64,000 nt of DNA from Bacillus sp. F19 (GTDB lineage: Bacteria; Bacillota; Bacilli; Bacillales; Bacillaceae): NCBI GenBank assembly GCA_023823795.1, contig CP085710.1, positions 2,072,001 through 2,136,000 on the forward strand, read 5' to 3'. The notes under the pieces are model-generated. The model worked only from the letters and a program-made list of their open reading frames with translations. It did not search any database and was not told the origin of the DNA. Shown piece by piece: positions 3,819-31,776 of the stretch. A program made the position numbers and the translations under genes. How positions within the stretch are numbered: position 1 is the stretch's first letter; each line of letters starts with the position of its first letter.

Positions 3819-3975
3819 AGTGGAGATTTAACCTGTTTAAGCAAATCATGGAATGTATGCGTTATTCTTTGTATGCGGCAGGAATATCATTTCATTTAAA
3901 AGATAAACTCATAAATTTAAAAAAGTGAAAGTATGAAAATAAAGAGAGAGAACACCTCTTTAAGGAGGATCATGT

Positions 3976-11852: not shown

Positions 11853-11854
11853 TT

Positions 11855-12307: not shown

Positions 12308-12319
12308 GATTGAGGATCC

Positions 12320-12625
12320 ATGATTCAAGCTATATCACCCTTTCAGATGCAGAGAGTTAAGGAAAGTCAAGTTCAGGACGTTCAAAAAAATAAACAAACT
12401 CAACAGACCTCATTTTCCGATTTCTTAACACAATCAATCAATGAAGTGAATTCCATGCAGGTGAAATCAGATCAAATGACCGCTGCATTAGCAGAAGGGA
12501 AAAATGTTCAATTGCAGGATGTTATGATTGCCGCTGAAAAGGCGAGTGTAACCATGCTTGCAACAATTGAAATCAGAAATAAAGCAGTAGAAGCATATCA
12601 GGAAATGATGAGAATGCAAATATAA
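12320..12625 (+). CDS. fliE: Flagellar hook-basal body protein FliE
   Basis: FliE joins the MS ring to the rod. The 101-residue protein has the family's C-terminal features: LQDVMIAAEKASVTMLATIE followed by IRNKAVEAYQEMMRMQ, ending at the conserved Met-Gln-Ile. The N-terminus is glutamine-rich and variable, as is usual. It lies between flgC and fliF as in other Bacillus species. Confidence 0.95.
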   Translation: MIQAISPFQMQRVKESQVQDVQKNKQTQQTSFSDFLTQSINEVNSMQVKSDQMTAALAEGKNVQLQDVMIAAEKASVTMLATIEIRNKAVEAYQEMMRMQI

Positions 12626-12706
12626 TCTTAATATGTATAAAACTAGCGATGGATGCCGACTTCTCTATGCAGCATTCATGTCGTCATTATCGGGGGATTT
12701 CCAGGA

Positions 12707-14296: not shown

Positions 14297-14309
14297 GAGG
14301 TTTTAAGTG

Positions 14310-15329: not shown

Positions 15330-16080
15330 ATTGATTAAATCGGCACATGCACTTCAGCAGGAAGACGCTAAAAAATCAATTTTATTAAAGACAATCGACT
15401 TCAGTCCTCCTTCAAATGTAAGGGGAAATCCAGAACTGTCAATGAAAGCAAAAGTGTTTTTGCAGCAGGCAAGCGAGGAAGCTGAAACACTTGTTCAAAA
15501 AGCTAAAGCTGAAGCGAAAAGCATCCGAATTAATATAGAGGCTGAGCGGCAGCAATGGAATTCTGAGCGGGAGATGCAAAAAGAAGTAGCGAGAGAAGAA
15601 GGATACCTTGCCGGTCTGAATGCCGGAAAAGAAGAAGGCTACATGCAATACATATCCCATCTTGAAGACGCACGGGAAATTGTTCAGCAATCAAAGGAAG
15701 ATTATATCGGCAAAATTGTTTCAGCTGAAGAAACGATCGTCAAGCTTGCTGTTAAATTGGCTGAGAAGCTGATTTTTATTGAAATGGAAGAAAATCCGAA
15801 GTGGTTTTTGGAGCTTGTTAAAAAAGCATTAAATGAAGTTCGCGAGTATCCTGAAATTAAAATTTTTGTTCATCCGATACATTATGGTCATGTTTTAAAA
15901 CAAAAAAATGAATTAGAGAATACGCTTATGTCTAAATCAGACTTGTTTATATTTCCTGATGATTCATTGCCAGAAGGAAGCTGTCAAATTGAATCACCTT
16001 TTGGAAAGGTGGATGCAGGAATAGATGTACAGCTTCAGCAGCTGAAGCAGCAAATGCTTGAATTGGTTGGAGAGGAATGA
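15322..16080 (+). CDS. fliH: Flagellar assembly protein FliH
   Basis: A regulator of the FliI ATPase and a peripheral stalk of the export apparatus. I prefer the TTG start at 15322 (MSKLIKSAHALQ, 252 residues) because GGAGGAG lies at 15306-15312 and the product aligns with the usual MSxLIKS start. An ATG at 15313 would sit too close to that site. It overlaps the fliG 3' end by 8 bases. The middle is a long charged coiled coil rich in Glu/Gln/Ala (about 50-110), followed by the FliH/VatE-like C-terminal domain. Confidence 0.93.
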   Translation: MSKLIKSAHALQQEDAKKSILLKTIDFSPPSNVRGNPELSMKAKVFLQQASEEAETLVQKAKAEAKSIRINIEAERQQWNSEREMQKEVAREEGYLAGLNAGKEEGYMQYISHLEDAREIVQQSKEDYIGKIVSAEETIVKLAVKLAEKLIFIEMEENPKWFLELVKKALNEVREYPEIKIFVHPIHYGHVLKQKNELENTLMSKSDLFIFPDDSLPEGSCQIESPFGKVDAGIDVQLQQLKQQMLELVGEE

Positions 16081-16087
16081 GCACTTT

Positions 16088-17410
16088 TTGAAAGCAGAGG
16101 AGTTAATCTCGAGAATAGATACCCTGGATTCTTATAAAAGATATGGAAAAGTTATCAAAGTGATTGGACTGATGATTGAGTCAAGAGGCCCGAAAAGTTC
16201 AATAGGAGATTTATGCTATATTCATACAGGTTCCAGTAAGGAATCAGCAATTCCGGCTGAAGTGGTTGGATTCAAAGGGGAAAACGTCCTATTGATGCCA
16301 TTTGAGCATCTTTCACAGATTTCACCAGGCAGTATCGTGAAAGCAACAAATGACTCTTTGAAAATAAAAGTAGGTTCTGGTTTGATCGGTCAAGTTGTAG
16401 ATGCGTATGGCCATCCTCTAAATCTATCCCCTTTGCCAAAAGGTTTAACGCCAATATCTGCTGAACAAAGTCCTCCAAACCCTATGAGAAGACCCCCAAT
16501 AAATGAACCGATGGAAGTAGGCATTCGCGTGATCGACAGCCTGCTGACTGTAGGAAAAGGTCAGCGTGTAGGGATTTTTGCGGGAAGCGGCGTAGGGAAA
16601 AGTACACTCATGGGAATGATTGCAAGAAATACAAAAGCGGATCTGAATGTGATCGCTCTAATAGGAGAGCGCGGCCGTGAAGTCAGGGAATTCATTGAAA
16701 AGGATCTGGGAGAAGAAGGGCTTAAACGTTCTATTGTAGTAGTGGCAACCTCAGATCAGCCGGCTTTAATGAGAATGAAAGCTTCATATACTGCTACAGC
16801 CATCGCTGAATATTTCCGGGATAAAGACATGAATGTCATGTTCATGATGGATTCTGTTACAAGGGTTGCCATGGCACAAAGAGAGATAGGACTCGCAGTC
16901 GGCGAACCTCCAACAGCCAAAGGCTATACACCAAGTGTTTTTGCCGTCCTGCCTAAGCTATTAGAGCGGACAGGCACAAACGAGAAAGGAACCATTACTG
17001 CTTTTTATACCGTGCTTGTAGATGGTGACGATATGAATGAGCCGATTGCGGATACAGTGCGGGGAATACTCGATGGACACATCGTGCTTGACCGCAGCTT
17101 GGCTAACAAAGGCCAGTTTCCGGCAGTCAACGTATTAAAAAGCATAAGCAGGGTAATGAATCAAATTGTTTCTGATCATCAGAAAAAGAATGCGGCAAAA
17201 CTGAGAGAATTACTGGCAGCTTATATGAATTCTGAAGACTTGATTAATATTGGAGCTTACAAAAGAGGTTCGAACAGGGAGATTGATGATGCCATCCGAT
17301 TTTATCCGAAGATTATTTCATTTTTAAAACAGGATGTGCATGATAAAATCACTTTTGCAGAGAGCACAGCCTCATTAGAACGATTGATTGAAAAAGGTGA
17401 GAATGGGTGA
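16088..17410 (+). CDS. fliI: Flagellum-specific ATP synthase FliI
   Basis: Hexameric export ATPase, related to the F1 beta subunit, that unloads chaperone-substrate complexes at the flagellar export gate. The TTG at 16088 (440 residues, MKAEELISRID) is my choice. GGAGAGG lies at 16069-16075, and the product begins just before the conserved SYKRYGKV segment. A TTG at 16058 is also open but overlaps fliH. Walker A is GSGVGKST at 166-173 and ALIGERGREVREF follows. Walker B is FMMDSVTR. All catalytic motifs are intact. Confidence 0.95.
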   Translation: MKAEELISRIDTLDSYKRYGKVIKVIGLMIESRGPKSSIGDLCYIHTGSSKESAIPAEVVGFKGENVLLMPFEHLSQISPGSIVKATNDSLKIKVGSGLIGQVVDAYGHPLNLSPLPKGLTPISAEQSPPNPMRRPPINEPMEVGIRVIDSLLTVGKGQRVGIFAGSGVGKSTLMGMIARNTKADLNVIALIGERGREVREFIEKDLGEEGLKRSIVVVATSDQPALMRMKASYTATAIAEYFRDKDMNVMFMMDSVTRVAMAQREIGLAVGEPPTAKGYTPSVFAVLPKLLERTGTNEKGTITAFYTVLVDGDDMNEPIADTVRGILDGHIVLDRSLANKGQFPAVNVLKSISRVMNQIVSDHQKKNAAKLRELLAAYMNSEDLINIGAYKRGSNREIDDAIRFYPKIISFLKQDVHDKITFAESTASLERLIEKGENG

Positions 17411-17850
17411 AATATACATACCGGTTTCAAAAAGTGCTTGAATTAAAAGAAAATGAAAAAGAAAAGTCTCTTGAAGACTATAACCGTTCTGTTTTTGAAT
17501 TTGAAAAAGCCGCAGAAAAGCTGTATGACTGCCTGAAGAAAAAAGAGGTGCTCGAAGAGAGAACCATAAGGCAGCTGAGCACAGGCATGCCTGTACAGGA
17601 AATCCGCCACTTTCAGCAGTTTGTCACTAATTTAGAAAAAACGATTGCCCATTATCAGCGGCTGGTCGTTATGACAAGAGAAAACATGAATGAAAAACAG
17701 CTTGAGCTTACTGAAAAAAATATTGAAGTAAAGAAATATGAAAAAATGAAAGAAAAGCATGATGAAGTTCATCTCGAACATGTGAAAACATCAGAATCAA
17801 AGTTCATGGATGATCTCTCGATTCAGGCCTTTGCACTTCGGGGAAATTAG
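17407..17850 (+). CDS. fliJ: Flagellar export chaperone FliJ
   Basis: A small coiled-coil protein acting in the centre of the FliI ring, in the manner of the gamma subunit of F1. It has 147 residues, is almost wholly helical and is dominated by Lys and Glu. The family start MKYTYRFQKVLELKENEKE is visible. The GTG start overlaps the fliI stop (GTGA), suggesting coupled translation. Confidence 0.93.
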   Translation: MKYTYRFQKVLELKENEKEKSLEDYNRSVFEFEKAAEKLYDCLKKKEVLEERTIRQLSTGMPVQEIRHFQQFVTNLEKTIAHYQRLVVMTRENMNEKQLELTEKNIEVKKYEKMKEKHDEVHLEHVKTSESKFMDDLSIQAFALRGN

Positions 17851-17861
17851 GTGAAAATACT

Positions 17862-18437
17862 GTGAAAAACAATGAGAATGATTCAAGCAAGCTTCAATGG
17901 ACATTTTTTGTAATTGTCATTCCATTTATATTTACTGTCACGTTCATTACGGTCATCTTAACAGTAGCGCGCGTAGATGTGGCAGGGAAAATGAAAGGAG
18001 TGATCTTGCATCTGCAGGGAACTGCAGAACATACGAGCGTTCATGAGGAAAAAAACAGCAAAAATGCAGATGCCTCCCATACAGCAGAGCTTGAGAAAGC
18101 TAATAAGTTTCAAAAAAACACCATTGAAAAACAGCAGCAGGAAATATCTGCCGCAGAAAACGACGCTGACCTTAAAGTGAGAGAAATTCAGCAGCTCAGC
18201 CAAGAAGTAAAGTCCCTCAAAGAACAGCTGCTTGGAACAGAAAATAAAGAAAAAGATATCGCCAAACTCTATGAAAAGATGTCCAGCAAAAAAGCCGCTG
18301 AAATCATCCCGTTTTTATCAGATGAAGAGGCTTTGCTGATTTTAACTTCTATTAAAGATGATCAGCTCATTGCAGTGATGGAAAAAATGTCAGTTGAGGA
18401 TGCTGCGAAATATACAAAAATGCTTGCAAAATCCTGA
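17862..18437 (+). CDS. ylxF: YlxF/MotE-family membrane protein with MgtE N-terminal-like domain
   Basis: YlxF sits between fliJ and fliK in Bacillus flagellar operons. The 191-residue product begins with a GTG, has one membrane segment (about residues 14-36), and a long coiled coil (about 60-130). Its C-terminal segment MSSKKAAEIIPFLSDEEALLILTSI resembles the MgtE intracellular N domain, as in MotE proteins, which act as chaperones for stator proteins in other bacteria. A role with the flagellar motor is inferred from this and from its position. Confidence 0.85.
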   Translation: MKNNENDSSKLQWTFFVIVIPFIFTVTFITVILTVARVDVAGKMKGVILHLQGTAEHTSVHEEKNSKNADASHTAELEKANKFQKNTIEKQQQEISAAENDADLKVREIQQLSQEVKSLKEQLLGTENKEKDIAKLYEKMSSKKAAEIIPFLSDEEALLILTSIKDDQLIAVMEKMSVEDAAKYTKMLAKS

Positions 18438-18469
18438 CACCATGGATGACTTGTAAGGGAGGTGAAAAG

Positions 18470-19909
18470 GTGAAAATTTCTGCTGACTTACTAAATACCG
18501 GGACTGTATGGAAGAACGCGCATCAAAAAAGTGAACAATCTTCTTCTTTTCAAACCCTTTTTGATAGCTTGCAGCTTACTGAACAAGAAGATCATTCATC
18601 AGTTGCTGAATCCGAAAAGATTTATGAAGAGAATCATCCAGAATTTGATTTTAACGAATTTGAAGAGGAAATAAAGGGCTTTTTAACGACTATACCTTTG
18701 GAAGAAGGGTACTTCATTCAATCTCCAATATTAAATCAGAAAATCACTCAATTAGCAGAGCTTGCAGATGAGAATGAAGGCTATATTATCCTTACAATCT
18801 TAACCCATTCTGAATCTATGGAGAATATTTTCGCTCAGCTGAACGAACAGCCGGCTGCAGAATCAGTGATACTGCTTACAGTGATGGCTGGAATTATGCA
18901 GTTGCCTGGATCAAAAGAAATAACGGAGCTTAAGAATGAACTGATTTCCAATTTTAATAAAGATCGGCCGGATCTAATAATGAAGGACTCTTCTCTTGCA
19001 GAAGCAATAAAGATTTTTGATGAATATGATCAGAGCGGAAATCAAATGAGCAGAACTGCAGAAAATAATCGTTCCGGCCTTGTGCATACTCCTGTAAATG
19101 AGAATTTAATACAAGCGGAATTAACCTCTAAAGTAAGGGATCCTGTTAAAAACATGATGGAAGAAACGCCTCTCTCAGCACAAAAATATGAACTTCCTAA
19201 AATGACTGGCCTATATAATAGCCAGAATCTGAATGGTGACAGCAATGAAGCAATATTATTAGTAAGTACAGAAGAACGTTATCGTATTTATTCATTAGGA
19301 CAAAACATTGGTGCTCCTCCAATTAAAATGTTTAATAAATTTAAAACAGCAGGCACTGAGGGCAATAAGAATTTACCTGTTTCAGGCATGACAGGTCAAG
19401 ATGTGCAAAGAAATCTCGCTTTTTCAGAAAGTGGTTTACAAATAAATACAGGAAAAGCGAAAGTTTTCTCAACATCAGATAAAGCGATTCCAGCCCCACA
19501 AAATCAGCAGTTATTTAATAATCAAGTTACAGAAGCTTTTAAACGGTCCAAAGCGCTATTCAAAGCCATTGGTTCATCTCAATTGACCATCCGTTTAGCT
19601 CCAGAACATTTAGGGATGCTGACAATAAAACTTCAGCAGCAGGATGGAAAAACGATTGCGAAGATCATTACTTCCACACAATCCGCAAAGGAGCTGGTTG
19701 AACAAGGCATTCATCAACTGAAACAAGTACTTCCAGCTATCAGTATTCAGGTTGACAGGTTTGAAATGTATAGCGAACAGCTGGAGCCTTCATTTAATCG
19801 CAGCCATGAAGAAGCTGATCAACATCGGCGTGAACAAGACAGATCAAGAAAAGAATCAAAAGAAGATGAAAGAGATACATTTAAAGCACATTTAAATATG
19901 CTGACGTAA
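18470..19909 (+). CDS. fliK: Flagellar hook-length control protein FliK
   Basis: FliK measures hook length and triggers the export switch through FlhB. I use the GTG at 18470 (479 residues, [11 protein letters not shown]) because GGGAGGTG lies at 18457-18464; an ATG at 18446 would lie 8 bases after ylxF. The N-terminal and central parts are poorly conserved and low in complexity. The C-terminal domain is recognisable in [20 protein letters not shown] (about residues 366-385). The tail is rich in charged residues, as is usual. Confidence 0.9.
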
Positions 19910-19922
19910 GCGGAGGATGAAA

Positions 19923-20354
19923 ATGACTCAAAACACAATTGATGCAGGACTGCTCTTATCTTCTACAAATACAGCAGAAAGATCCGGAGGAAAATCCAGC
20001 TTAGGTAAAGACGACTTCTTGAAAATCTTGATTGCCCAGCTTCAAAATCAGGATCCACTTAATCCAATGGAAGATAAAGAGTTCATTTCTCAGATGGCCA
20101 GTTTTTCTTCACTTGAACAAATGACAAATATGAGTACCCAGCTCAGTGATTTTATTCACCTTCATGTGAATGATGGTATTTTAAAGTACTCTGAAATGAT
20201 AGGAAAACAAGTTGAGTGGGAGTCAAGTGAAGGCAAGTCTTCCGGAATCGTTAAATCCATTAAACAGTCAGGTGCAGATATTATTCTGGAAATGCAGGAT
20301 GGAAAAGAAGTGACAAGCGCTTTGATTACAAAAGTGACAGTTCAGAATTCATAA
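19923..20354 (+). CDS. flgD: Flagellar hook-capping protein FlgD
   Basis: Scaffold for hook assembly. It has 143 residues, as in other Bacillus species, which lack the larger C-terminal domain of enterobacterial FlgD. The signature [20 protein letters not shown] and the following [20 protein letters not shown] are clear. Of two in-frame ATGs I choose 19923, because GGAGG at 19912-19916 directly abuts the other at 19917. Confidence 0.94.
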
Positions 20355-20422
20355 TTTTTAAAAATTGAAATTTAAATTGATTCAGCACTTAAATGCTGAC
20401 CATTAAGGGAGAGAGAAAATCT

Positions 20423-21385
20423 ATGTTGCGTTCAATGTACTCTGGTGTAAGCGGTATGAAAAATTTTCAGACAAAACTTGATGTGATTGGAAATAACATC
20501 GCAAACGTTAATACTTATGGTTTCAAAAAAGGCCGAGTTACCTATAAGGATTTAATAAACCAGCAAATTGCAGGCGCCAGTGCAGCAACAAATAATTCAA
20601 GCGGAATGAACGCGAAACAGGTAGGTCTTGGTTCAGCCCTGAGCTCTATTGATACCATTCACACTGCTGGTTCTAATCAAACGACCGGCCGTACGCTGGA
20701 TCTTGCGTTGGCTGGTGATGGATTTTTTGTAGTTGGAACGATTAAAGATTTAACAAAGGTAGGTTTAGATACAGACACAGGAAAGAAAGACAATATTATA
20801 GCAGAACCAATAGATGATGCAGTTGATTTAAGTTATACACGTGCTGGAAACTTCTATCTGGACGATAAAGGATATTTAGTGACATCAGACGGGTTTTATT
20901 TAATAGGTCAGACAGGAGATAAAACACCCGGGAATGCTGCGGATGAATCTGAATGGACGGATCAGCTCAGCGCTGAAGCAGGGCTTATCCAAATTCCACT
21001 GACAGCTAAAAGTTTCAATATCGGTCCAGATGGAACAGTAAGCTTTGTAGATGATGGCGGAGAATTGAGAGTGGCGGGACAAATTCGTGTCGCTAATTTC
21101 GCCAATGAGGGAGGACTTGAAAAAGTCGGAGGCAACATGTATAAACAGTCCAGTAACTCAGGGACGATCGACACAAATGGGGATGGAATCCAGCTGAATG
21201 AACTTTCAGTCCCGGGCCAAGATGGTTCAGCTGCAATAATGGCAGGAATGCTTGAGATGTCAAACGTAGACCTTGCAGATGAATTCACGGAAATGATCAT
21301 GGCTCAGCGCGGATTCCAGTCAAATACAAAAATTATTACGACTGCTGATGAAATTCTTCAGGAATTAATGAATTTAAAACGTTAA
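20423..21385 (+). CDS. flgE: Flagellar hook protein FlgE
   Basis: The hook filament subunit (long named flgG in B. subtilis). The start MLRSMYSGVSGMKNFQTKLD is typical, followed by the rod/hook motif VIGNNIANVNTYGFKKGRV. The C-terminus has MSNVDLADEFTEMIMAQRGF and ITTADEILQELMNLKR. At 320 residues it is longer than the roughly 264-residue B. subtilis protein, with extra sequence in the central surface domain between about 105 and 190 (for example VGLDTDTGKKDNIIAEPIDD). The ATG at 20423 follows GGGAGAGAG. Confidence 0.95.
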   Translation: MLRSMYSGVSGMKNFQTKLDVIGNNIANVNTYGFKKGRVTYKDLINQQIAGASAATNNSSGMNAKQVGLGSALSSIDTIHTAGSNQTTGRTLDLALAGDGFFVVGTIKDLTKVGLDTDTGKKDNIIAEPIDDAVDLSYTRAGNFYLDDKGYLVTSDGFYLIGQTGDKTPGNAADESEWTDQLSAEAGLIQIPLTAKSFNIGPDGTVSFVDDGGELRVAGQIRVANFANEGGLEKVGGNMYKQSSNSGTIDTNGDGIQLNELSVPGQDGSAAIMAGMLEMSNVDLADEFTEMIMAQRGFQSNTKIITTADEILQELMNLKR

Positions 21386-21396
21386 GTTAGGGGGCA

Positions 21397-21422
21397 GGGG
21401 TTCATATCTATATATGACCCCC
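21397..21422 (+). other. Hairpin between flgE and swrD
   Basis: GGGGTTCATAT and ATATGACCCC form a stem of about 10 bp with one bulged T. The hairpin follows the G-rich run TTAGGGGG and precedes the swrD TTG start. No T-run follows, so it is not a typical terminator. Confidence 0.6.
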
Positions 21423-21429
21423 GCAGCAT

Positions 21430-21651
21430 TTGATTTTATTAACTCGTTTGAACGGAAAGTCTTTTACACTAAACGCGATTTACATAGAGCAGGTAGAGTC
21501 TTTTCCGGACACAACCATAACACTTGCCAACGGGAAAAAATTTGTTGTAAAAGAATCAGAAGCTGCCGTTTCAATGTTAACTCGCAATTTTTATAGAGAA
21601 ATTCATCTTTTACATGCATCAGGTTCTGCGGAGGTGACCGGGCATGAATAA
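21430..21651 (+). CDS. swrD: SwrD (FlbD-family) swarming motility protein
   Basis: SwrD raises flagellar motor torque in B. subtilis and is needed for swarming. This 73-residue product matches the family, with [20 protein letters not shown] followed by [19 protein letters not shown]. The start appears to be the TTG at 21430, giving MILLTRLNG. No ribosome-binding site lies at the usual distance; the nearest purine run (AGGGGG, 21389-21394) is separated by a hairpin. It overlaps fliL by 8 bases. A second frame from 21414 shows no family similarity. Confidence 0.85.
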
Positions 21652-22075
21652 AAAATTATTAACCATCATGCTTGTCATCATTACATCCATTACGTTAATA
21701 GGCGTATCAGCATTAGTCATCGCAACAAATTTTATGGATACGGCAGAAGCAAAAGAAAAAGAGCCGTCCATCGATGAGGTCATCGAGTATTCCTTTGATC
21801 TTCCGGAAATTACGACTAATCTGGCAAGTGAAAACATTGTCCGTTTGTCTTTTAAACTAGAAACGGACAGCAAGAAAGCGAAAGAAGAGCTTGAAAAAAG
21901 AGAATTTCAAGTCAGAGATATCATCATTTCAGAGCTTTCAAATATTTCTGCTGAAGAATTGGATGGAAAAGACGGGATGGATGCTTTTAAAGAGACTGTT
22001 AAGAAGCGGGCAAACGAATTGATGCAAAAAGGGAAAATTCAGAAGGTCTACACAACCTCCTATATCATTCAATAG
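21644..22075 (+). CDS. fliL: Flagellar basal-body-associated protein FliL
   Basis: A membrane protein that surrounds stator units in the motor. The 143 residues have one N-terminal membrane segment (about 4-26, [22 protein letters not shown] by composition) and a periplasm-side SPFH-like domain starting near [14 protein letters not shown] and ending VYTTSYIIQ. The ATG overlaps the end of swrD, with GGAGGTGACC upstream at 21631-21640. Confidence 0.93.
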
Positions 22076-22109
22076 TTTGGCATAAAACCTGCACAGGAGG
22101 TGTGAATGC

Positions 22110-23108
22110 ATGACAAGTGAAATATTGTCTCAAAATGAAATTGATGCTTTGCTGTCAGCTATTTCGTCAGGTGAAATGGATGCAGATGAATTAAAAAAAG
22201 AAGAAACAGAGCGAAAGGTAAAAGTTTACGATTTTAAGAGAGCTCTAAGGTTTTCTAAAGATCAAATTAGAAGCTTAACGAGAATTCATGAAAACTTTGC
22301 AAGGCTTTTAACAACCTATTTTTCAGCTCAGCTGAGAACATATGTCCAGATCAGTGTAGGGTCTGTAGATCAGCTGCCATATGAAGAATTTATCCGGTCG
22401 ATTCCAAAGATGACCATTCTTAATGTATTTGAAGTTATCCCTTTAAATGGGCGCATATTAATGGAAGTCAACCCGATTATCGCTTATGCCATGATGGACA
22501 GGCTTATGGGGGGCCATGGCACAGGCATAAATAAATCTGATCAATTGACGGAAATTGAAAGCAGAATTATGTCAAACCTGTTTGAAAAATCACTTGATAA
22601 TTACAAAGAGGCATGGAGTTCAATCTATAACATAGAACCGGTCATGAATGATCTTGAAGTCAACCCGCAGTTCCTTCAGATGGTTTCACCGAATGAAACG
22701 GTGGTTGTGATTTCGCTGAACACTCAGATTGGTGAAACGAGCGGCATGATAAATCTCTGTATTCCGCATGTCATCTTAGAACCGATTATTCCCCGTTTAA
22801 GTGTTCACTTTTGGATGCAGTCTGAAAGAAAAGAACCAAAGCAAAACGAAGTTGAAGCTCTGGAAAGAAAAATTCATTCAGCAGAACTTCAGATTATCGC
22901 AGAACTGGGAATATCAGAGATTACCATACAAGAATTTTTGGACATTCAAGCGGGAGATATTATACAGCTGGAAAAAGCCATTAATCAGCCTTTAGTGGTC
23001 AAAATTGGAGATAAACCAAAATTTTATGGTCAGCCCGGTAAAGTGAAAAGAAAAGCAGCAGTGCAAGTAATCGGCCATTATCAGAGGGGGCACGAAGAAG
23101 GTGAGTAA
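22110..23108 (+). CDS. fliM: Flagellar motor switch protein FliM
   Basis: C-ring switch protein that binds phosphorylated CheY through its N-terminal peptide, seen here as ILSQNEIDALLSAI (residues 5-18). The CheC-like middle domain and the C-terminal SpoA domain (EFLDIQAGDIIQLEKAINQP) are present. Its 332 residues are the normal length. AGGAGGTG precedes the ATG, and its end overlaps fliY by 8 bases. The CheY-binding peptide is kept even though the CheA kinase gene is missing from this operon. Confidence 0.97.
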   Translation: MTSEILSQNEIDALLSAISSGEMDADELKKEETERKVKVYDFKRALRFSKDQIRSLTRIHENFARLLTTYFSAQLRTYVQISVGSVDQLPYEEFIRSIPKMTILNVFEVIPLNGRILMEVNPIIAYAMMDRLMGGHGTGINKSDQLTEIESRIMSNLFEKSLDNYKEAWSSIYNIEPVMNDLEVNPQFLQMVSPNETVVVISLNTQIGETSGMINLCIPHVILEPIIPRLSVHFWMQSERKEPKQNEVEALERKIHSAELQIIAELGISEITIQEFLDIQAGDIIQLEKAINQPLVVKIGDKPKFYGQPGKVKRKAAVQVIGHYQRGHEEGE

Positions 23109-24213
23109 TGGGATGTTATCTCAGGATGAGATTGATGCTCTTTTAAAAGGATCAGATTCAATTGATGAAAAGAGTTTTTCGATAGAAACTGAAGATTATT
23201 TAAATGATAAGGAAAAAGATGCAATTGGGGAGATTGGCAATATTTCATTTGGCAGTTCAGCTACAGCACTATCTACATTGCTGCATCAAATAGTGGAAAT
23301 TACCACTCCAACTGTTTCTGTTGTGCAAAAACAAAGATTATCTGATGAGTTTCCACATCCTTATGTAGCCATTAAGGTGAACTATACAGAAGGATTTATC
23401 GGCAGTAATCTGCTTGTGATTAAACAAAGTGATGCAGCGATAATCGCTGATTTGATGATAGGAGGAAATGGTGGAACTTCTAATTCAATACTGGATGAAA
23501 TTATGATCAGCGCGGTTCAAGAAGCGATGAATCAAATGATGGGGTCAGCTGCAACCTCAATGTCTACGATCTTTAACAAAAAAGTAGATATCTCTCCTCC
23601 GTCTATTGAGCTCCTGGATGTAAAAGAAGGAGAGGGAACAGAAGCCTTTCCAAAGGAAGATTTATTTATAAAAGTGGCATTCAGGCTGAAGATCGGTGTT
23701 TTAATAGATTCAGAGATTATGCAGCTGCTGCCTCTGCAATTTGTAAAAGGTCTTGTTGATGAGCTAATGAATCCAAAGGAGCAGGCTGCGGCGATTGAAG
23801 CTGTAAAAGAAGAAAGACGGATTGAACCAGCACTTCAGAACCGGCCTAGTTATGCTTCACAGCCTGTTCAGCAAAGCGCAGAGAAACGGCAAGTCGATGT
23901 TATGCCGGCTGAATTTTCATCTTTTGAACCTGTTCCAGCCTATCAAAATGAAATGAAAAATCTTGATATGCTGCTTGATATCCCTCTTCAGGTAACTGTT
24001 GAACTTGGCCGCACAAAGCGTTCAGTTAAAGAAATTCTGGAACTTTCCTCCGGCTCAATAATTGAATTGGATAAACTTGCAGGCGAACCTGTTGATATTC
24101 TAATTAACAATAAAATCGTCGCACAAGGGGAAGTAGTTGTTATTGAAGAAAATTTCGGAGTGCGGGTGACTGATATTTTAAGTCAGTTTGAGCGATTAAA
24201 TAAACTAAAGTAA
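23101..24213 (+). CDS. fliY: Flagellar motor switch phosphatase FliY
   Basis: In Bacillus FliY replaces FliN and also dephosphorylates CheY-P. The GTG start gives 370 residues. An N-terminal peptide like that of FliM (MLSQDEIDALLKGS) is followed by two CheC-type phosphatase motifs: DKEKDAIGEIGNISFGSSAT (about 37-56) and the repeat ILDEIMISAVQEAMNQMMGS (about 131-150). A variable linker precedes the C-terminal FliN/SpoA domain (about 285-370). All parts are intact. Confidence 0.96.
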   Translation: MSNGMLSQDEIDALLKGSDSIDEKSFSIETEDYLNDKEKDAIGEIGNISFGSSATALSTLLHQIVEITTPTVSVVQKQRLSDEFPHPYVAIKVNYTEGFIGSNLLVIKQSDAAIIADLMIGGNGGTSNSILDEIMISAVQEAMNQMMGSAATSMSTIFNKKVDISPPSIELLDVKEGEGTEAFPKEDLFIKVAFRLKIGVLIDSEIMQLLPLQFVKGLVDELMNPKEQAAAIEAVKEERRIEPALQNRPSYASQPVQQSAEKRQVDVMPAEFSSFEPVPAYQNEMKNLDMLLDIPLQVTVELGRTKRSVKEILELSSGSIIELDKLAGEPVDILINNKIVAQGEVVVIEENFGVRVTDILSQFERLNKLK

Positions 24214-24234
24214 TCAATCATGGGAGCGACTGAA

Positions 24235-24597
24235 ATGGCACATAAAATTATGATCGTGGACGATGCAGCATTTATGAGAATGATGATCAAAGATATCTTG
24301 ACAAAAAATGGATTTGAGGTTGTAGCTGAAGCTGCTGACGGTGCACAGGCTGTTGAGAAGTATAAAGAGCATTACCCGGACCTTGTAACAATGGATATTA
24401 CTATGCCTGAAATGGATGGCATTACCGCCCTCAAAGAAATTAAAAAAATGAACGCTCATGCAAAAGTCATCATGTGTTCTGCCATGGGACAGCAGGCAAT
24501 GGTCATCGATGCGATTCAAGCAGGCGCAAAAGACTTTATCGTGAAGCCTTTTCAGGCAGACAGAGTGCTTGAAGCCATTCATAAAATATTAAGTTAA
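24235..24597 (+). CDS. cheY: Chemotaxis response regulator CheY
   Basis: Single-domain receiver that, when phosphorylated by CheA, binds the motor switch. The 120-residue product has the acidic pocket Asp9/Asp10 (MIVDDAAF), the phospho-acceptor Asp54 (TMDITMPEMDG) and the conserved Lys in FIVKPF. The ATG at 24235 follows GGGAG; an upstream ATG at 24220 is unlikely. It lies between fliY and fliO as in B. subtilis. Its kinase and adaptation genes, normally later in this operon, are absent from the window, so it may be unphosphorylated. Confidence 0.96.
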   Translation: MAHKIMIVDDAAFMRMMIKDILTKNGFEVVAEAADGAQAVEKYKEHYPDLVTMDITMPEMDGITALKEIKKMNAHAKVIMCSAMGQQAMVIDAIQAGAKDFIVKPFQADRVLEAIHKILS

Positions 24598-24612
24598 AAG
24601 GAGTCTTTCCAC

Positions 24613-25269
24613 TTGCAAGTGAAAATCAATTGGACCGGAATAGCTATCATAGTTTTCCTCTTCCTTATACCGTACGGTGAGACAGTTGTTCATGCGGAGC
24701 AGGGGACTGAATCCGTAGCAGATTGGGTCGGGTCAGATGAAAAAAAGGCTGACAGCAAGAGTGAAAAAACCGGCGGGGATGAAATAAATCAGGCTGCTGA
24801 TACGTCGGTTACAGCTTGGGATTTCGTTAAGATGATCCTCTCAACTGCATTTATCCTATTTTTAATCTACATACTGCTTAAATTTGTGAGCAAAAGGAAA
24901 AATTTCACTTCTTCATCAAGTTATATTGAAAATCTTGGCGGAACAAATGTCGGTCAAAATCGTTCCATTCAGTTAATCAAAGTAGGGAAAAAAATCCTTG
25001 TAGTAGGTGTTTCAGATTCGGTTCAGCTGTTAAAAGAAATTGAGGATGAGGATGAATGCAGAGAGATAGCAGAGGGACATCAGCAAAGATTCGCTCCTGC
25101 GATTGACCCGAAAGATTGGCTTAACAAAGTATCTGGGCCGTTATTTAACACTAAAAATAACAGAAGCGTTAACGGGCATTCATTTTCCTTTAAAGAACAG
25201 CTGGAGCAATTAAAAAAGGAAAGACGAAGCAGCTTAGAGGATTTAACTAGAAAGGATTACACAAAATGA
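24613..25269 (+). CDS. fliO: Flagellar biosynthesis protein FliO (FliZ)
   Basis: A membrane protein that helps assemble the FliP ring of the export gate. The TTG start at 24613 follows AAAGGAG. The 218 residues have an N-terminal signal-like segment (about 8-28, ending VVHAEQ), a polar stretch, a second membrane segment (about 73-92) and a basic cytoplasmic domain with the FliO-family pattern IQLIKVGKKILVVGVSDSVQ. It is followed immediately by fliP, whose ATG overlaps its end. Confidence 0.9.
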   Translation: MQVKINWTGIAIIVFLFLIPYGETVVHAEQGTESVADWVGSDEKKADSKSEKTGGDEINQAADTSVTAWDFVKMILSTAFILFLIYILLKFVSKRKNFTSSSSYIENLGGTNVGQNRSIQLIKVGKKILVVGVSDSVQLLKEIEDEDECREIAEGHQQRFAPAIDPKDWLNKVSGPLFNTKNNRSVNGHSFSFKEQLEQLKKERRSSLEDLTRKDYTK

Positions 25270-25931
25270 ATGAATTTGTGGAAATATTCAGCAATAGCGA
25301 TGCGGAAAATGTAAGCACCTCTGTAAGATTGCTGCTGTTGCTGACTGTCCTTTCTCTCGCACCAAGCATTTTAATTTTAATGACATGTTTTACCCGTATC
25401 ATCATCGTCCTGTCTTTTGTAAGGACGTCACTCGCAACGCAGCAGATGCCCCCGAACCAGGTGCTGATCGGCATTGCCCTGTTTTTATCATTTTTCATTA
25501 TGGCCCCGACTTTTTCAGAAATCTATAAACAGGCATTAACGCCATTATTTAATGAAGAAATTGGACTCGAAGAGGCTTATGAAAAAGCAGCTCTCCCTTT
25601 AAAAGAATTTATGAGCAAGTATACGAGGCAAAAGGATTTAGCTCTGTTTCTTGAATATGCAAAGATGGAAAAGCCGGACTCGGTAGAAGACATTCCGCTT
25701 ACAGCGCTTGTTCCTGCGTTTGCAATCAGTGAAATAAAAACCGCTTTTCAAATTGGATTTATGATTTTCATACCATTTTTAGTCATCGACATGGTGGTAG
25801 CAAGTATTTTGATGTCAATGGGAATGATGATGCTTCCGCCTGTGATGATTTCACTTCCATTTAAAATTCTGCTGTTTGTTCTTGTAGATGGGTGGTATTT
25901 GGTCGTGAAATCACTTCTTCAAAGTTTTTAA
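25266..25931 (+). CDS. fliP: Flagellar type III export gate protein FliP
   Basis: Core subunit of the export gate in the inner membrane. At 221 residues it is full length. The family signature VLSFVRTSLATQQMPPNQVL is present in the first half, and ALVPAFAISEIKTAFQIGFM and IDMVVASILMSMGMMMLPP in the second. At least three hydrophobic membrane segments are evident. It shares four bases with the end of fliO. Confidence 0.97.
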   Translation: MNEFVEIFSNSDAENVSTSVRLLLLLTVLSLAPSILILMTCFTRIIIVLSFVRTSLATQQMPPNQVLIGIALFLSFFIMAPTFSEIYKQALTPLFNEEIGLEEAYEKAALPLKEFMSKYTRQKDLALFLEYAKMEKPDSVEDIPLTALVPAFAISEIKTAFQIGFMIFIPFLVIDMVVASILMSMGMMMLPPVMISLPFKILLFVLVDGWYLVVKSLLQSF

Positions 25932-25947
25932 GTAGGAGATTAAACAT

Positions 25948-26217
25948 ATGAGTTCAGAATTTGTCATTTCGATTGCTGAAAAAGCCATTTATACAACCTT
26001 AATCATATGCGGTCCTCTTTTGGCGATCGCATTGGTTATTGGTTTAGTTGTCAGTGTTTTTCAGGCTGCAACACAAATTCAGGAGCAGACGCTTGCTTTT
26101 GTTCCTAAAATTGTGGGAGTGCTGATCGGGCTCGTCTTTTTCGGCCCGTGGATGCTGTCAACCATCATATCCTATGCACAGGATATTTTCGGCAATCTTA
26201 ATAGATTTGTAGGTTAA
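25948..26217 (+). CDS. fliQ: Flagellar type III export gate protein FliQ
   Basis: A small gate subunit of 89 residues with two membrane helices (about 15-38 and 52-75). The family segment GLVVSVFQAATQIQEQTLAF lies between them, followed by VPKIVGVLIGLVFFGPWML. AGTAGGAG precedes the ATG. fliR starts 3 bases after its stop. Confidence 0.96.
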   Translation: MSSEFVISIAEKAIYTTLIICGPLLAIALVIGLVVSVFQAATQIQEQTLAFVPKIVGVLIGLVFFGPWMLSTIISYAQDIFGNLNRFVG

Positions 26218-26220
26218 GAC

Positions 26221-27009
26221 ATGAATGTAATTGAAAGTTTTCCGTCTTTTTTGCTTATCTTTGCAAGAATGAGCGCATTTTTCGTAACACTGCCGCTGTT
26301 TTCGTACCGCACCATTCCATCATCACATAAAATCGGTTTTTCTTTTTTTCTTTCTCTTATCGTATTTACTGCAGTAAATCCAGAACCGATGGAACTGAAC
26401 GGAGCATTTATACTCCTTGCAGTAAAAGAAGTCATGATCGGTCTATTCATCGGTTTTTCTGCCTATCTTATGATGGCTGCTGTGCAAATAGCCGGCAGTT
26501 TGATCGATTTTCAAATGGGATTTGCCATTGCCAATATTATCGATCCGCAAACCGGGGCGCAAAGTCCGTTAATTGGTCAATTCCTTAATATCCTGGTCTT
26601 GCTTTTTATTCTGAGTGTAAACGCCCATCATCTCTTGCTGGACGGCGTTTTTTACAGTTTTCAATACATTCCGCTTGAGAATGCTGCGTTTCCTTTTGGA
26701 GGTGGGAATATCGCTAATCTGATCACAAAATCGTTCAGTGCGATGTTTTTGATCGCCTTTCAAATGTCATTTCCTGTTGTGGCATCGTTGTTCCTGGTGG
26801 ATCTGGCCCTTGGAATTGTAGCCCGCACAGTGCCTCAGCTGAATATTTTTGTAGTTGGACTTCCGCTGAAAATCGGTGTCAGCTTTATTATGCTCATATT
26901 GGTCATGGGAACGATGTTCATTCTCATCCAGCATGTGTTTGAAACCATGCTTTATACGATGAGGGGGTTAATGGAAATAATCGGAGGAGCAGGAAATGGA
27001 ATTTCTTAA
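26221..27009 (+). CDS. fliR: Flagellar type III export gate protein FliR
   Basis: A gate subunit, FlhB-interacting, with about six hydrophobic segments over 262 residues. Conserved features include LPLFSYRTIPSSHKIGF near the N-terminus and QMGFAIANIIDPQTGAQSP in the middle. Its last codons overlap the beginning of flhB by 14 bases, which suggests coupled translation. Confidence 0.95.
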   Translation: MNVIESFPSFLLIFARMSAFFVTLPLFSYRTIPSSHKIGFSFFLSLIVFTAVNPEPMELNGAFILLAVKEVMIGLFIGFSAYLMMAAVQIAGSLIDFQMGFAIANIIDPQTGAQSPLIGQFLNILVLLFILSVNAHHLLLDGVFYSFQYIPLENAAFPFGGGNIANLITKSFSAMFLIAFQMSFPVVASLFLVDLALGIVARTVPQLNIFVVGLPLKIGVSFIMLILVMGTMFILIQHVFETMLYTMRGLMEIIGGAGNGIS

Positions 27010-28078
27010 ACTTGATCTGCAATTCTTTTCAGGTGAAAAAACAGAAAAAGCTACACCGCGCAAGCGTGATGATGTCAGAAAAAAAGGACAGGTTGCCAAA
27101 AGTGCAGATGTAAATACGGCAATCAGCCTGCTGGCCATTTTTTTATCCTTTCTGTTTATCGGGCCATTCATGCTGCAGCGAATACTCGCAATGATGAATG
27201 CCTCGTTGCAAGAGACAATTTTAATGAATTTGACAGAAAAAAATGTCCATGAACTGATGGTTGAGATGGTGATCGAGTCAGCCTATATAAGTGCTCCTGT
27301 CATGGTGGTGGCATTAGTTGCAGGAGTCGCAGGAAACTATATGCAGGCAGGCTTTTTATTCTCAACAGAAGCCATTCAGATGAAACTTGAGAAAATTAAT
27401 CCGATTCAAGGCTTCAAGCGCATTTATTCCATGAGAGCGATTGTTGAACTGCTTAAATCGATATTGAAAATATCATTTGTGGGAGCTGTAACTTTTTCTG
27501 TCATCTGGTTTCAGACGGGGGAAATTTTGTCTCTTTCAAAATTAACAGTAGAAAAAGCGTTCATATTCATTGCAAAGCTCACCTTTCAAATGGGATTGTT
27601 TGCATCCATAGCCCTGTTATTTCTCTCGCTGCTTGATTATTTTTATCAAAAATTCGATTTTGAAAAGAACATCCGCATGTCAAAGCAGGATTTAAAAGAT
27701 GAGTACAAAAAGTCAGAGGGAGATCCGTTAATTAAGTCGCGAATTAAACAAAGACAAAGAGAAATGGCAGCCAGACGCATGATGCAGGATGTCCCCAATG
27801 CAGATGTCGTCATTACAAACCCAACCCATTTTGCTATCGCCTTAAAATATGACGAAGACAAAATGGATGCACCGTTCGTTGTCGCTAAAGGAGTCGATTT
27901 TGTTGCTCAAAAAATCAAAGAGACGGCAAAAGCAAATGATGTGACAATGGTAGAAAATCGTCCTTTAGCTAGAGCGCTTTACGATCAAATTGAAATCGGA
28001 AAAGCGGTGCCTGAAGAATTTTTTAAAGCTATTGCAGAAATATTGGCTTATGTCTATCAGCTGAAAAATAAGATTTAA
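26996..28078 (+). CDS. flhB: Flagellar export apparatus switch protein FlhB
   Basis: The substrate-specificity switch of the flagellar export system. At 360 residues it is full length. Four membrane segments lie in the first 215 residues. The self-cleavage site is intact as Asn275-Pro-Thr-His278 in VVITNPTHFAIALKY. The N-terminus begins MEFLKLDLQFFSGEKTEKAT. Its C-terminal domain resembles the ylqH remnant at the left edge of the window. Confidence 0.97.
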   Translation: MEFLKLDLQFFSGEKTEKATPRKRDDVRKKGQVAKSADVNTAISLLAIFLSFLFIGPFMLQRILAMMNASLQETILMNLTEKNVHELMVEMVIESAYISAPVMVVALVAGVAGNYMQAGFLFSTEAIQMKLEKINPIQGFKRIYSMRAIVELLKSILKISFVGAVTFSVIWFQTGEILSLSKLTVEKAFIFIAKLTFQMGLFASIALLFLSLLDYFYQKFDFEKNIRMSKQDLKDEYKKSEGDPLIKSRIKQRQREMAARRMMQDVPNADVVITNPTHFAIALKYDEDKMDAPFVVAKGVDFVAQKIKETAKANDVTMVENRPLARALYDQIEIGKAVPEEFFKAIAEILAYVYQLKNKI

Positions 28079-28120
28079 AGTTTTATAGGATACAGGTTCT
28101 GTTTGAAAGAGAGGTAAACC

Positions 28121-30154
28121 ATGCAAGCTCGAGATTTATCTGTTCTATTAAGTGTTATTTTGATTGTTGCAATGCTGATTATCCCATTTCCAACATGGCT
28201 CTTAAGCCTGCTGATTATGATAAATATCACCCTTGCCCTGCTCGTTCTTTTAACGTCAATGAATATGAGGGAGCCGCTTGATTTTGCTATTTTTCCCTCT
28301 TTATTGCTGCTGCTTACTCTCTTTCGTTTGGGGTTGAATGTTTCTACTACTCGTGCGATTCTCTCACATGGAGAAGCAGGCGGTGTTATTGAAACTTTTG
28401 GAACGTTTGTAGTTGGCGGAAATGTATTAGTAGGATTTGTTGTATTCCTTATCCTGATTATCATTCAGTTTGTTGTGATCACGAAGGGATCGGAAAGGGT
28501 ATCTGAAGTTGCTGCAAGATTTACCCTTGATGCGATGCCGGGAAAACAGATGAGCATTGATGCAGATTTAAATGCAGGCGTAATCTCTGAGCAGCAGGCC
28601 CGCACCCGCCGTGAAAAAGTATCCAGGGAAGCAGATTTCTACGGAGCTATGGACGGAGCGAGCAAGTTTGTAAAAGGAGATGCAATTGCAGGAATTATCA
28701 TCGTCATTATCAACATGATTTTCGGAATTATTATTGGAATGATGCAGCTTGGCATGGGCTTTGAAGATGCAGCAGCTCATTTTACAATGCTTACAGTTGG
28801 TGACGGTATTGTCAGTCAAATACCTGCCCTGCTTATTTCAACTGCAACCGGCATAGTTGTGACCAGGGCTGCTTCAGACGGCAATTTAGGAACAGACATT
28901 ACTAGTCAATTGTTTGCCTATCCGAAAATGATGTATGTCGCAGCATCAACCATTCTCCTGCTCGGTATTTTTACTCCAATTGGTTTATTTGTTACCGTTC
29001 CAATAGCTTCAGCATTTGGTTTTGGAGGATATTTTATTTCTAAATCAAAACAAGATCAGCTGAAATTGGAAGAAGAGGTTGAAGAGGAAGTTGAGATTGA
29101 TGAAATGAAAACACCTGAGAGTGTTGTTCAGCTGCTGAATGTCGATCCAATTGAATTTGAATTTGGATACGGTCTGATTCCGCTTGCTGACACGAACCAG
29201 GGCGGTGATCTGCTTGACCGGATCGTGATGATAAGGAGACAGCTGGCCATTGAACTCGGACTTGTGATTCCTGTTGTAAGAATACGCGACAATATCCAGC
29301 TTCAGCCCAACGAATACAGGCTAAAGCTGAAAGGAAATGAAGTAGCGGGAGGCGAGGTTCTTCTAGATCACTATTTGGCAATGGCCCCTGGAATTGAAGA
29401 TGATTCCATTGAAGGGATTGATACGATCGAGCCTTCATTTGGGCTTCCTGCAAAATGGATCAATGAAGAAAACAAGGATGCAGCTGAAATGTTCGGCTAT
29501 ACGGTCGTTGATCCACCGTCGGTTGTATCTACCCATATTACAGAAACGATCAAACAATATGCTCACGAGCTGCTTGGCCGGCAGGAGACAAAACAGCTTA
29601 TTGACCATTTGAAAGAATCATATCCGATTTTGGCAGAAGAGGTCACGCCATCTCCGCTCTCAATCGGCGATATTCAAAAAGTACTTGGAAAGCTATTAAA
29701 AGAAAAGGTGTCAATCCGAAATTTGCCGGTGATTTTTGAATCTTTAGCAGATTACGGAAAAATGACATCCGATACAGAATTATTAGGAGAATACGTTAGA
29801 CAGGCACTTGCAAAACAAATAACGAGCCAGTATTCATCAGGCGAAACATTAAAAGTAGTGACCCTTTCTGGAAGAGTTGAAAAAGCTGTTGCAGAAGGAG
29901 TGCAGCAAACAGAGCATGGAAATTACCTGTCTATTGAACCGGATATCTCTCAAGCTATTATTGAATCAATTGCTAAAGAAATCGAACAATTAGCCCTGCA
30001 GGAGCAGTCACCGATTCTTCTTTGCTCGCCCGCAGTAAGAATGTATGTCAGACAGTTAATAGACCGTTATTTCCCTCAGCTGCCGGTGCTCTCCTATAAC
30101 GAGCTCGAGGCCGATGTGGAAGTTCAAAGCGTCGGGGTGGTGAATATCGCATGA
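28121..30154 (+). CDS. flhA: Flagellar export protein FlhA
   Basis: The largest export-gate component, a nonameric ring using proton motive force. Its 677 residues comprise an N-terminal membrane part with about eight helices (to about residue 320) and a cytoplasmic C-terminal part. The FHIPEP-family signature is seen as RFTLDAMPGKQMSIDADLNA, followed by GVISEQQARTRREKV. AGAGAGGT precedes the ATG. flhF starts within its last four bases (ATGA overlap). Confidence 0.97.
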   Translation: MQARDLSVLLSVILIVAMLIIPFPTWLLSLLIMINITLALLVLLTSMNMREPLDFAIFPSLLLLLTLFRLGLNVSTTRAILSHGEAGGVIETFGTFVVGGNVLVGFVVFLILIIIQFVVITKGSERVSEVAARFTLDAMPGKQMSIDADLNAGVISEQQARTRREKVSREADFYGAMDGASKFVKGDAIAGIIIVIINMIFGIIIGMMQLGMGFEDAAAHFTMLTVGDGIVSQIPALLISTATGIVVTRAASDGNLGTDITSQLFAYPKMMYVAASTILLLGIFTPIGLFVTVPIASAFGFGGYFISKSKQDQLKLEEEVEEEVEIDEMKTPESVVQLLNVDPIEFEFGYGLIPLADTNQGGDLLDRIVMIRRQLAIELGLVIPVVRIRDNIQLQPNEYRLKLKGNEVAGGEVLLDHYLAMAPGIEDDSIEGIDTIEPSFGLPAKWINEENKDAAEMFGYTVVDPPSVVSTHITETIKQYAHELLGRQETKQLIDHLKESYPILAEEVTPSPLSIGDIQKVLGKLLKEKVSIRNLPVIFESLADYGKMTSDTELLGEYVRQALAKQITSQYSSGETLKVVTLSGRVEKAVAEGVQQTEHGNYLSIEPDISQAIIESIAKEIEQLALQEQSPILLCSPAVRMYVRQLIDRYFPQLPVLSYNELEADVEVQSVGVVNIA

Positions 30155-31245
30155 AAGTAAAGAAATATATAGCTCCAAATATGCAGGAAGCAATGAAAAA
30201 AATAAAAAACGACCTTGGTCATGATGCCGTGATATTAAACTCAAAGGTTGTTCATACCGGCGGTGTCTTCGGTCTTTTTATGAAAAAAAAGATAGAAGTG
30301 ATTGCCGGACGCGATCAGGACCCGAGGATCAGAAGAAATCATTTGAAACCTGAATTGGTAAAAGCTAAGCCACAGGCAGCAAATAAGATTAATCATGAGC
30401 AATCACTGATATCAGAGGTGCTTGAGCTGAAAAACCTCGTGAAATCTTTAGGTATAAATGAAAAGCAAAAGGGACTTCCTCCACATTTGATAAAACTGAA
30501 TCAATTTCTTCAAGATAAAGAAATAGGTTTAGCCAGCAGATCTGAGATACTTTCAGAATTGCCAAATGACGTGTCTTGGCAATCTCCTCCTGAATTTGAT
30601 TCAGAAGTGATCAAGGTGATGGAGAAGAAGATGGATCATTTGGCGTTCGGCGGGATTTCCTGCCAAAAGAAATATATTAATGTTGTCGGGCCAACCGGAG
30701 TCGGCAAAACAACTACTCTTGCTAAGCTTGCAGCAGAAAGCATGCTTAAAAATCATAAAAAAATTGCATTCATCACAACGGATACTTACCGGATCGCGGC
30801 AATCGAACAAATTAAAACATACGCCAATATATTAAATGCACCGCTTGCAGTCTGTTATTCTATTGAAGATTTTCAAAGAGCAAAAGAAAAATTCGAGGAT
30901 ATGGATATGGTTTTTATTGATACGGCCGGCAGGAATTTCAGGAACAGGCAGCTTGTCAATGATTTAGAAAAGCTGATTGATTTCACGGAAGAAATGGAAA
31001 CATTCTTGGTCCTGTCTGTTACATCCAAACTAAATGACATGCTTGAAATACATAATAATTTCTCATCCATTCATATCGATAAAATCATTTTTACAAAGCT
31101 TGATGAAACAAATACAAAAGGATCCATGTATGATTTTATCCTTTCTGCTAAAAAAGGTGTTGCCTACATGACGAACGGACAGAACGTTCGGGATGATATC
31201 CTGATTGCTACCGAAAAACTGACAGCTGAAGAGATTATGAGGTAA
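30151..31245 (+). CDS. flhF: Flagellar SRP-family GTPase FlhF
   Basis: A signal-recognition-particle-type GTPase that helps place flagella. The 364 residues match the usual length (366 in B. subtilis). The N-terminal B region starts MKVKKYIAPNMQEAMKKIKN. The GTPase core has [18 protein letters not shown] (about 180-197), TTDTYRIAAIEQIKTYA and DTAGRNFRNR. The C-terminus GVAYMTNGQNVRDDI...EEIMR ends where the B. subtilis protein ends, so the gene is complete. The next codons belong to sigD; flhG, which normally follows, is missing. Confidence 0.95.
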   Translation: MKVKKYIAPNMQEAMKKIKNDLGHDAVILNSKVVHTGGVFGLFMKKKIEVIAGRDQDPRIRRNHLKPELVKAKPQAANKINHEQSLISEVLELKNLVKSLGINEKQKGLPPHLIKLNQFLQDKEIGLASRSEILSELPNDVSWQSPPEFDSEVIKVMEKKMDHLAFGGISCQKKYINVVGPTGVGKTTTLAKLAAESMLKNHKKIAFITTDTYRIAAIEQIKTYANILNAPLAVCYSIEDFQRAKEKFEDMDMVFIDTAGRNFRNRQLVNDLEKLIDFTEEMETFLVLSVTSKLNDMLEIHNNFSSIHIDKIIFTKLDETNTKGSMYDFILSAKKGVAYMTNGQNVRDDILIATEKLTAEEIMR

Positions 31246-31776
31246 ACATATGCGTCGTTTCGGATAAGAGGCGCCATTTTGGACGGACTCAGAAAAGAGG
31301 ATTGGCTGCCGCGAAGCTCAAGAGAAAAAGCTAAAAAAGTTGATACAAGTATAGAGCGTCTTGAGCAAAAATATTTGCGGAACGTGCTGCCCGGCGAAGT
31401 GGCAAAGGACCTGGAAATGTCTGAGGATGAAGTGACGCACATTATGAAGGAAGGATTCTTTGCAAATGTTCTTTCTATAGACGGCCAAAACCACGATCAT
31501 GATGAACAGGATCACCATTCGAAAATGGTCCTGAAAGATGAGAAATCTATATCACCCGAGGAAAAAATGGTAAAAGATGAGCTGATTCAGCAATTAAGTG
31601 AAGTCATCGTCGGCCTCTCTGAAAAAGAACAGCTTGTGGTCAGTTTATTTTATAAAGAAGAACTGACCCTTACAGAAATCGGACAAGTGATGGGGCTTTC
31701 GACCTCGCGTATTTCTCAAATTCATTCTAAAGCTTTATTTAAATTAAGAAATTTACTGAAAAAAATCATTCATTAA
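31246..31776 (+). pseudogene. sigD: sigD 5'-truncated: sigma-D regions 3 and 4 only
   Basis: Sigma-D drives late flagellar, motility and autolysin genes; the full protein has about 254 residues. From the codon right after the flhF stop the sequence reads TYASFRIRGAI, then LDGLRKEDWLPRSSREKAKK and on to LTLTEIGQVMGLSTSRISQI and HSKALFKLRNLL, all colinear with sigma-D regions 3 and 4. Everything before TYASF, including regions 1.2 and 2 that bind core polymerase and the -10 element, is absent. No other frameshift or stop is seen. A TTG at 31279 could start a 165-residue peptide, but only a weak ribosome-binding site (AGAGG) precedes it. Confidence 0.93.

Follow-up and report, generated by a model that had tools for sequence, protein, structure and literature searches.

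Bacillus sp. F19 most probably represents a lineage in regressive evolution, in which chemotaxis and then motility are lost stepwise and which is seen here part-way (we put the probability of this reading at about 0.85). Chemotaxis is inactivated at seven separate places in the genome, namely the block of sigD and che genes, cheV, cheR and four receptor loci. The first of these lies in the window, the whole stretch of 64,000 nucleotides that was analysed, and because cheV, cheR and the four receptor loci are independently broken, the sigD-che deletion is one step of a wider loss. Of the frames examined for the hook-basal body, motor and filament, nearly all remain open, though under weaker constraint than in a sister genome.

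The flhF-sigD junction

The initial annotation had described a complete flhF, ending in EEIMR-TAA, joined cleanly to the middle of sigD. Both parts of this description held: the frame ends as stated and equals in length the flhF of the sister genomes G006 and G002, the codon directly 3' of its stop corresponds to sigD residue 81, and TYASFRIRGAILDGL is encoded from codon 31246 in a frame that stays open to the stop ending at 31776 (Table 1). Compared with G006, which is ~97% identical at the DNA level around the junction, 5,860 bp are absent, and compared with G002, 5,857 bp; in the sisters, which retain this DNA, the two sides are separated by 5,858 bp (G006) and 5,855 bp (G002) plus a 2-base overlap (AA). 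The interval in G006 holds flhG, cheB, cheA, cheW, cheC, cheD and the first 80 sigD codons (genes named by their order and similarity, or by a model match where one is cited), the same genes that had been listed as missing together with sigma region 2. One or both parts of the junction were matched by DNA search in 58 of 61 genomes (F19 and 60 relatives), and the flhF and sigD sides are both present, 5.2-5.9 kb apart, in all seven of the same-genus genomes fetched. The deletion is thereby confirmed as real, and the first reading of it as correct. Within the interval, cheW is open in G002 and is frameshifted in G006 by a 1-base insertion (L035 ~3955-4440); because of this frameshift, G006 may also have weakened chemotaxis, and the decay may not be confined to the F19 branch.

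Table 1. Features of the F19 window around the deletion
Feature	Position	Strand	Basis
fla/che operon body, flgB to flhA (basal body, hook, export apparatus, fliM, fliY, cheY), frames open	11463..30154	+	gene order
cheY, 125 aa, open	24220..24597	+	frame and model match
flhF, complete, 364 aa	30151..31245	+	TIGR03499 match
deletion junction, AA common to both sides	31244..31246	+	comparison with G006 and G002
sigD remnant from codon 81 onward, with sigma regions 3 and 4 but no region 2	31246..31776	+	model searches
swrB-like gene, open, 157 aa	31820..32293	+	frame analysis; name presumed from position

Sigma region 2 is the part of the factor that binds core polymerase and recognizes the -10 element. 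The remnant is 98% identical to sister SigD and aligns to the FliA/WhiG model PRK07670 from position 81 of 255, scoring 275 bits against a cut-off of 326, and it barely exceeds the cut-off of TIGR02479 (192.8 against 189.6 bits). Regions 3 and 4 were matched by Pfam, and no region 2 was reported by Pfam or the model searches, so that its relationship to the FliA/WhiG (sigma-28) group holds for regions 3-4 and the region 2 of a functional factor is missing. As region 2 is lost, the fragment should not start transcription. The first start codon left in the frame is a TTG at 31279 (165 aa). Only 3 nonsynonymous changes have accumulated in its 176 codons on the F19 branch, where ~10 would be expected had it been neutral for the whole branch; the deletion is apparently recent, as had been proposed.

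No complete replacement was found in the rest of the genome (5.59 Mb in 2 contigs, with a listed completeness of 100% and contamination of 0.04%). The CheA dimerisation domain (PF02895) has no match in F19, in line with the earlier claim of absent CheA-based signalling, and is matched in 78 of 81 family genomes (F19 among the 81), once in each sister. For the MCP signal domain F19 has 0 matches, vs 5-10 in each of seven same-genus relatives, the CheW domain has one partial match only, within a shortened cheV, and no second sigma-D was detected, the next-best match to sister SigD after the remnant being 35% identical and presumably another sigma factor. Relocation of the che cluster, which the initial annotation had left as a possibility, was rejected because no CheA, MCP, complete CheW or second sigma-D was found elsewhere, in searches that covered these four proteins; the absence is thus supported as probable loss rather than relocation. 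The other two family genomes with no CheA match, G011 and G101, resemble F19 in this respect and differ from it in having no FliF match, F19 being the only one of the three to keep FliF (FliF was searched in these three genomes and in G006). In the relatives G004 and G005, the CheW-domain match at the cheA end reads through one TAG (G004:C2:343713-344099, G005:C1:4071849-4072235), which may be the alignment running past the stop. On the second contig of F19, C2 (507 kb), the segment L136:5560-7837 resembles, at 82-83% identity, plasmid-borne genes of the cyanobacterium Aulosira laxa and of Bacillus velezensis that carry the annotation phosphoenolpyruvate synthase.

Lesions in chemotaxis genes at other loci

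Outside the window, cheV (C1 ~1806.7 kb) is without 601 internal bp compared with both sisters, and cheR (C1 ~3365 kb) is a pseudogene with five substitution stops, a 1-base deletion and a 4-base deletion. Receptor loci in F19 were placed by the neighbours of the four receptor genes of G006 (which account for five MCP domain matches, one gene having two), of which 7 of 8 pieces were matched. Relative to G006, receptor M1 has a net loss of 1,144 bp, leaving ~190 codons; M2 has lost 2,878 bp net, including an adjacent gene; M3 has lost 1,904 bp net; and M4 has lost 663, 425 and 189 bp and carries a substitution stop as well. G002 has a fifth receptor (L100), the F19 site of which was not located, the four F19 loci aligning with that stretch only in two short pieces, 111 and 130 bases long, in L124; the receptor comparison therefore refers to the four G006 receptors.

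Six of eight deletions (5,860, 601, 1,144, 2,878, 1,904 and 425 bp) are not multiples of three. At the junctions, as judged by the ends of aligned pieces, the two sides share 2 bases in the sigD-che block, 2 in cheV, 0 in M1 and 0, 12 and 1 in M4; at M2 and M3 there are no shared bases but 4 and 2 unmatched ones, respectively. Two F19-specific insertions of ~1.45 and 1.49 kb, each with two transposase-like frames (L149 ~1400-2850, L125:2331-3814), are found in neither of the sister stretches; one adjoins motB and the other is near the deleted receptor M1. Deletion mediated by mobile elements was considered, and neither insertion type has a copy in the window.

To set these lesions against a background, breakage was scored at nine loci, in 134 genes that encode at least 100 aa and are full length in each of the two sisters. 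Sixteen were flagged, one of which (431 aa) is open and is an artefact of a locus edge. Among the 12 chemotaxis and sigD-block genes (flhG, cheB, cheA, cheC, cheD, sigD, cheR, cheV, M1, M3, M4 and cheY) 11 are broken, vs 4 of 122 others (Fisher p 3.9e-12), a contrast with neighbours rather than with a genome-wide rate, since the loci were chosen for chemotaxis and flagellar genes. Two genes that F19 has lost did not enter the test: cheW, because of its frameshift in G006, and receptor M2, because it lies beyond the aligned span. Independent inactivations of a single pathway thus exceed the neighbour background, as regressive loss entails. The one open gene of the 12, cheY, has 2 nonsynonymous and 0 synonymous changes on the F19 branch. 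The four broken others include one gene that is FliT-like and one that is transporter-like. The first of these, which follows fliS (L102:3991-4311) and which we take to be FliT-like, encodes 106 aa vs 136-137 in the sisters. Deletions have removed the transporter-like gene (496 aa), held by 1,571 bp that are present in both sisters and absent at L124:6618, and parts of 504-aa and 281-aa genes. Because genes outside chemotaxis have been deleted too, the lineage loses DNA generally, and we count this against our preferred explanation.

Flagellar genes, their constraint and the timing of losses

FliF, MotA, flagellin and FlgL are present in F19 (flagellin and FlgL named by position), as is the region between flgM and the genes that follow fliS, both ends included and with gene names presumed; those of the flgB-to-flhA genes are likewise presumed, from B. 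subtilis order, except where a model match is cited. Nonsynonymous and synonymous changes (N/S) were assigned to the F19 and sister branches by polarised three-way codon counts. For 34 flagellar genes the ratio is 159/184 (0.86) in F19 vs 77/181 (0.43) in the sister (p 4.9e-5), and for 43 other genes 87/248 (0.35) vs 77/252 (0.31, p 0.47); flagellar and other genes differ within F19 (p 3.3e-8), with p 0.09 in the sister. The flagellar difference persists when any one gene is left out (p 7e-6 to 3e-4), in 16 core basal-body and export genes alone (p 0.021) and in the window's 21 flagellar genes alone (p 0.0099). Nonsynonymous changes are more numerous in F19 than in the sister in 28 flagellar genes and fewer in 3 (sign test 4.6e-6), vs 18 and 12 among the other genes. 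These counts leave out ten F19 frames for which one sister stretch or both lacked an ortholog, as well as two frames that a locus end cuts off. They also leave out the sigD remnant, the FliT-like gene, a yviE-like gene with a frameshift in G006, hag because it is variable, and fliK, flgD and flgE, which align poorly with G002 or have recombined there; no frame shorter than 75 aa was taken at any point. Because the F19 ratio is twice that of the sister, with similar ratios in other genes, flagellar constraint is, as judged by codon counts, relaxed on the F19 branch relative to the sister, and regressive loss would leave just such a trace in the remaining genes of the system.

Several features of the flagellar loci were noted alongside these counts. 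In F19, hag, motA and flgM are still preceded by sigma-D-type sites. A further site upstream of flaG was found by scan in both sisters and not in F19, where ~295 bp net are missing between hag and flaG; we did not count this as a loss of the flaG-fliD promoter, because a group I intron of the sisters overlaps the missing DNA and a -10-like element remains. The intron (RF00028) lies at the 3' end of the flagellin genes of G006 (L103:10976-11321, 65.3 bits) and G002 (L106:8195-8526, minus strand, 64.8 bits). None was found in the hag region of F19, where the flagellin allele differs, with 68% identity to that of G006. The fliK, flgD and flgE genes (window 18446-20410) differ strongly from those of G002, with fliK encoding 487 vs 687 aa and protein identities of 47-83%; as most neighbouring proteins are 88-98% identical, this suggests that the hook genes may have recombined. 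The gene that we take to be yviE-like encodes 122 aa in G006 vs 189.

The time since constraint ended was modelled for each gene as constraint at the sister's flagellar rate followed by neutrality (N/S 2.63, assuming a transition weight of 4), with the apparent fraction of the branch spent neutral as output and an upper limit of 1.5 marking the end of the grid. The estimate for flagellar genes is 0.20 (0.14-0.27), and those for the remnants are 0.17 (0-0.73) for sigD, 0.23 (0-1.11) for cheV and 0.25 (0-0.83) for M1, or 0.21 (0.01-0.54) when these three are pooled. FliT-like gives 0.28 (0-1.02), M4 0.71 (0.17-1.5) and cheR 1.2 (0.64 to the grid end of 1.5); M3 left too little sequence for such counts. 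For cheR, N/S differs from that of the flagellar genes at p 0.04, and for all remnants pooled (35/23 vs 159/184) at p 0.064. These estimates suggest that cheR may have been dead early, and that the sigD block, cheV, one receptor and flagellar constraint may all have gone in approximately the last fifth of the branch. The order rests on small counts, and a flagellar constraint weakened along the whole branch fits no worse than a sudden recent loss.

Proposed course of the loss and its alternatives

In B. subtilis, according to PMC4054197, the genes transcribed by sigma-D include hag, motA, motB, flgM, flgK, flgL and those of autolysins, and the hook-basal body is made from the fla-che operon; the role of sigma-D is also treated in PMC9250202. 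On our preferred reading of stepwise loss, cheR and perhaps one receptor would have been lost early, when flagella were still under selection; the sigD-che deletion would have come later, and removal of sigma-D would have ended transcription of flagellin, stator, junction protein and autolysin genes, after which the flagellar gene set would have begun to drift. From the B. subtilis regulon, the present cell is predicted to build hook-basal bodies at most, with no filament, no swimming and no response to attractants.

It is also conceivable, though unlikely, that sigma-D was lost first and that the chemotaxis genes, no longer expressed, decayed afterwards. This would agree with the similar apparent ages of the sigD, cheV and M1 remnants and the flagellar genes (0.17-0.25 of the branch, with wide intervals), but cheR looks neutral for the whole branch, with 17 nonsynonymous changes in 257 codons vs 9 in the 466 codons of the other three remnants (binomial p 0.003), and M4 has accumulated three deletions and a substitution stop. 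Retention of the flagellar apparatus for secretion, adhesion or surface sensing, expressed without sigma-D, seems improbable. Its frames are open and the F19 ratio of 0.86 is well below the neutral 2.6, and expression by another route is possible because sigma-D-type sites remain and most flagellar frames are open; a ratio twice that of the sister over 34 genes, raised in core export genes too, nevertheless fits recent loss, and the FliT-like gene is already broken. That the assembly dropped a 5.86-kb block which the strain truly carries is very improbable: a single assembly was examined, but it comprises 2 nearly uncontaminated contigs listed as complete, CheA is a single match per sister, the flagellar genes show relaxed constraint, and, the ground for our judgement, six other chemotaxis loci are independently broken, cheR by substitutions and small indels. 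Least probable of all is an engineered or laboratory-evolved non-motile strain, for although experimental evolution of B. subtilis on roots selects sigD and flagellar mutations (PMC10438812), the changes in cheR match neutral DNA since the split from a ~97%-identity sister, far beyond laboratory history, and most of the deletions do not preserve frame.

If stepwise loss is the right reading, a further and more tentative proposal, which we hold at somewhat less than even odds, is that flagella were selected for most of the history of the lineage while chemotaxis, with cheR dead, was already defective in adaptation, so that in nature the cells swam without normal chemotaxis until the sigD-che deletion recently ended it. 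If true, this would be an ordered record of chemotaxis and motility separating in nature.

Losses of this kind are already known, and it is the breadth and the partly readable order of the present case that merit attention. Bacillus anthracis is a naturally non-motile member of the Bacillaceae with decayed motility genes, partly kept and partly inactivated; in F19, by contrast, flagellar frames are nearly all open and the loss is concentrated in signalling and sigD. Experimentally evolved B. subtilis, as described in PMC10438812, offers a likeness in that sigD, hag and other flagellar genes were repeated mutational targets and several isolates moved less; here, in contrast, a natural lineage has nearly its whole dispersed chemotaxis set broken, rather than single mutations. 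A literature search of partial coverage found no description of a part-way, chemotaxis-first loss in titles and the beginnings of abstracts. Motility loss is usually seen at its start, as single mutations, or at its end, when everything is gone. In F19 the steps are separable and can be roughly ordered, with a ~97%-identity sister holding open copies of nearly every lost gene, which raises the questions of why the loss of sensing preceded that of the machinery, and whether selection may have maintained swimming in cells without chemotaxis.
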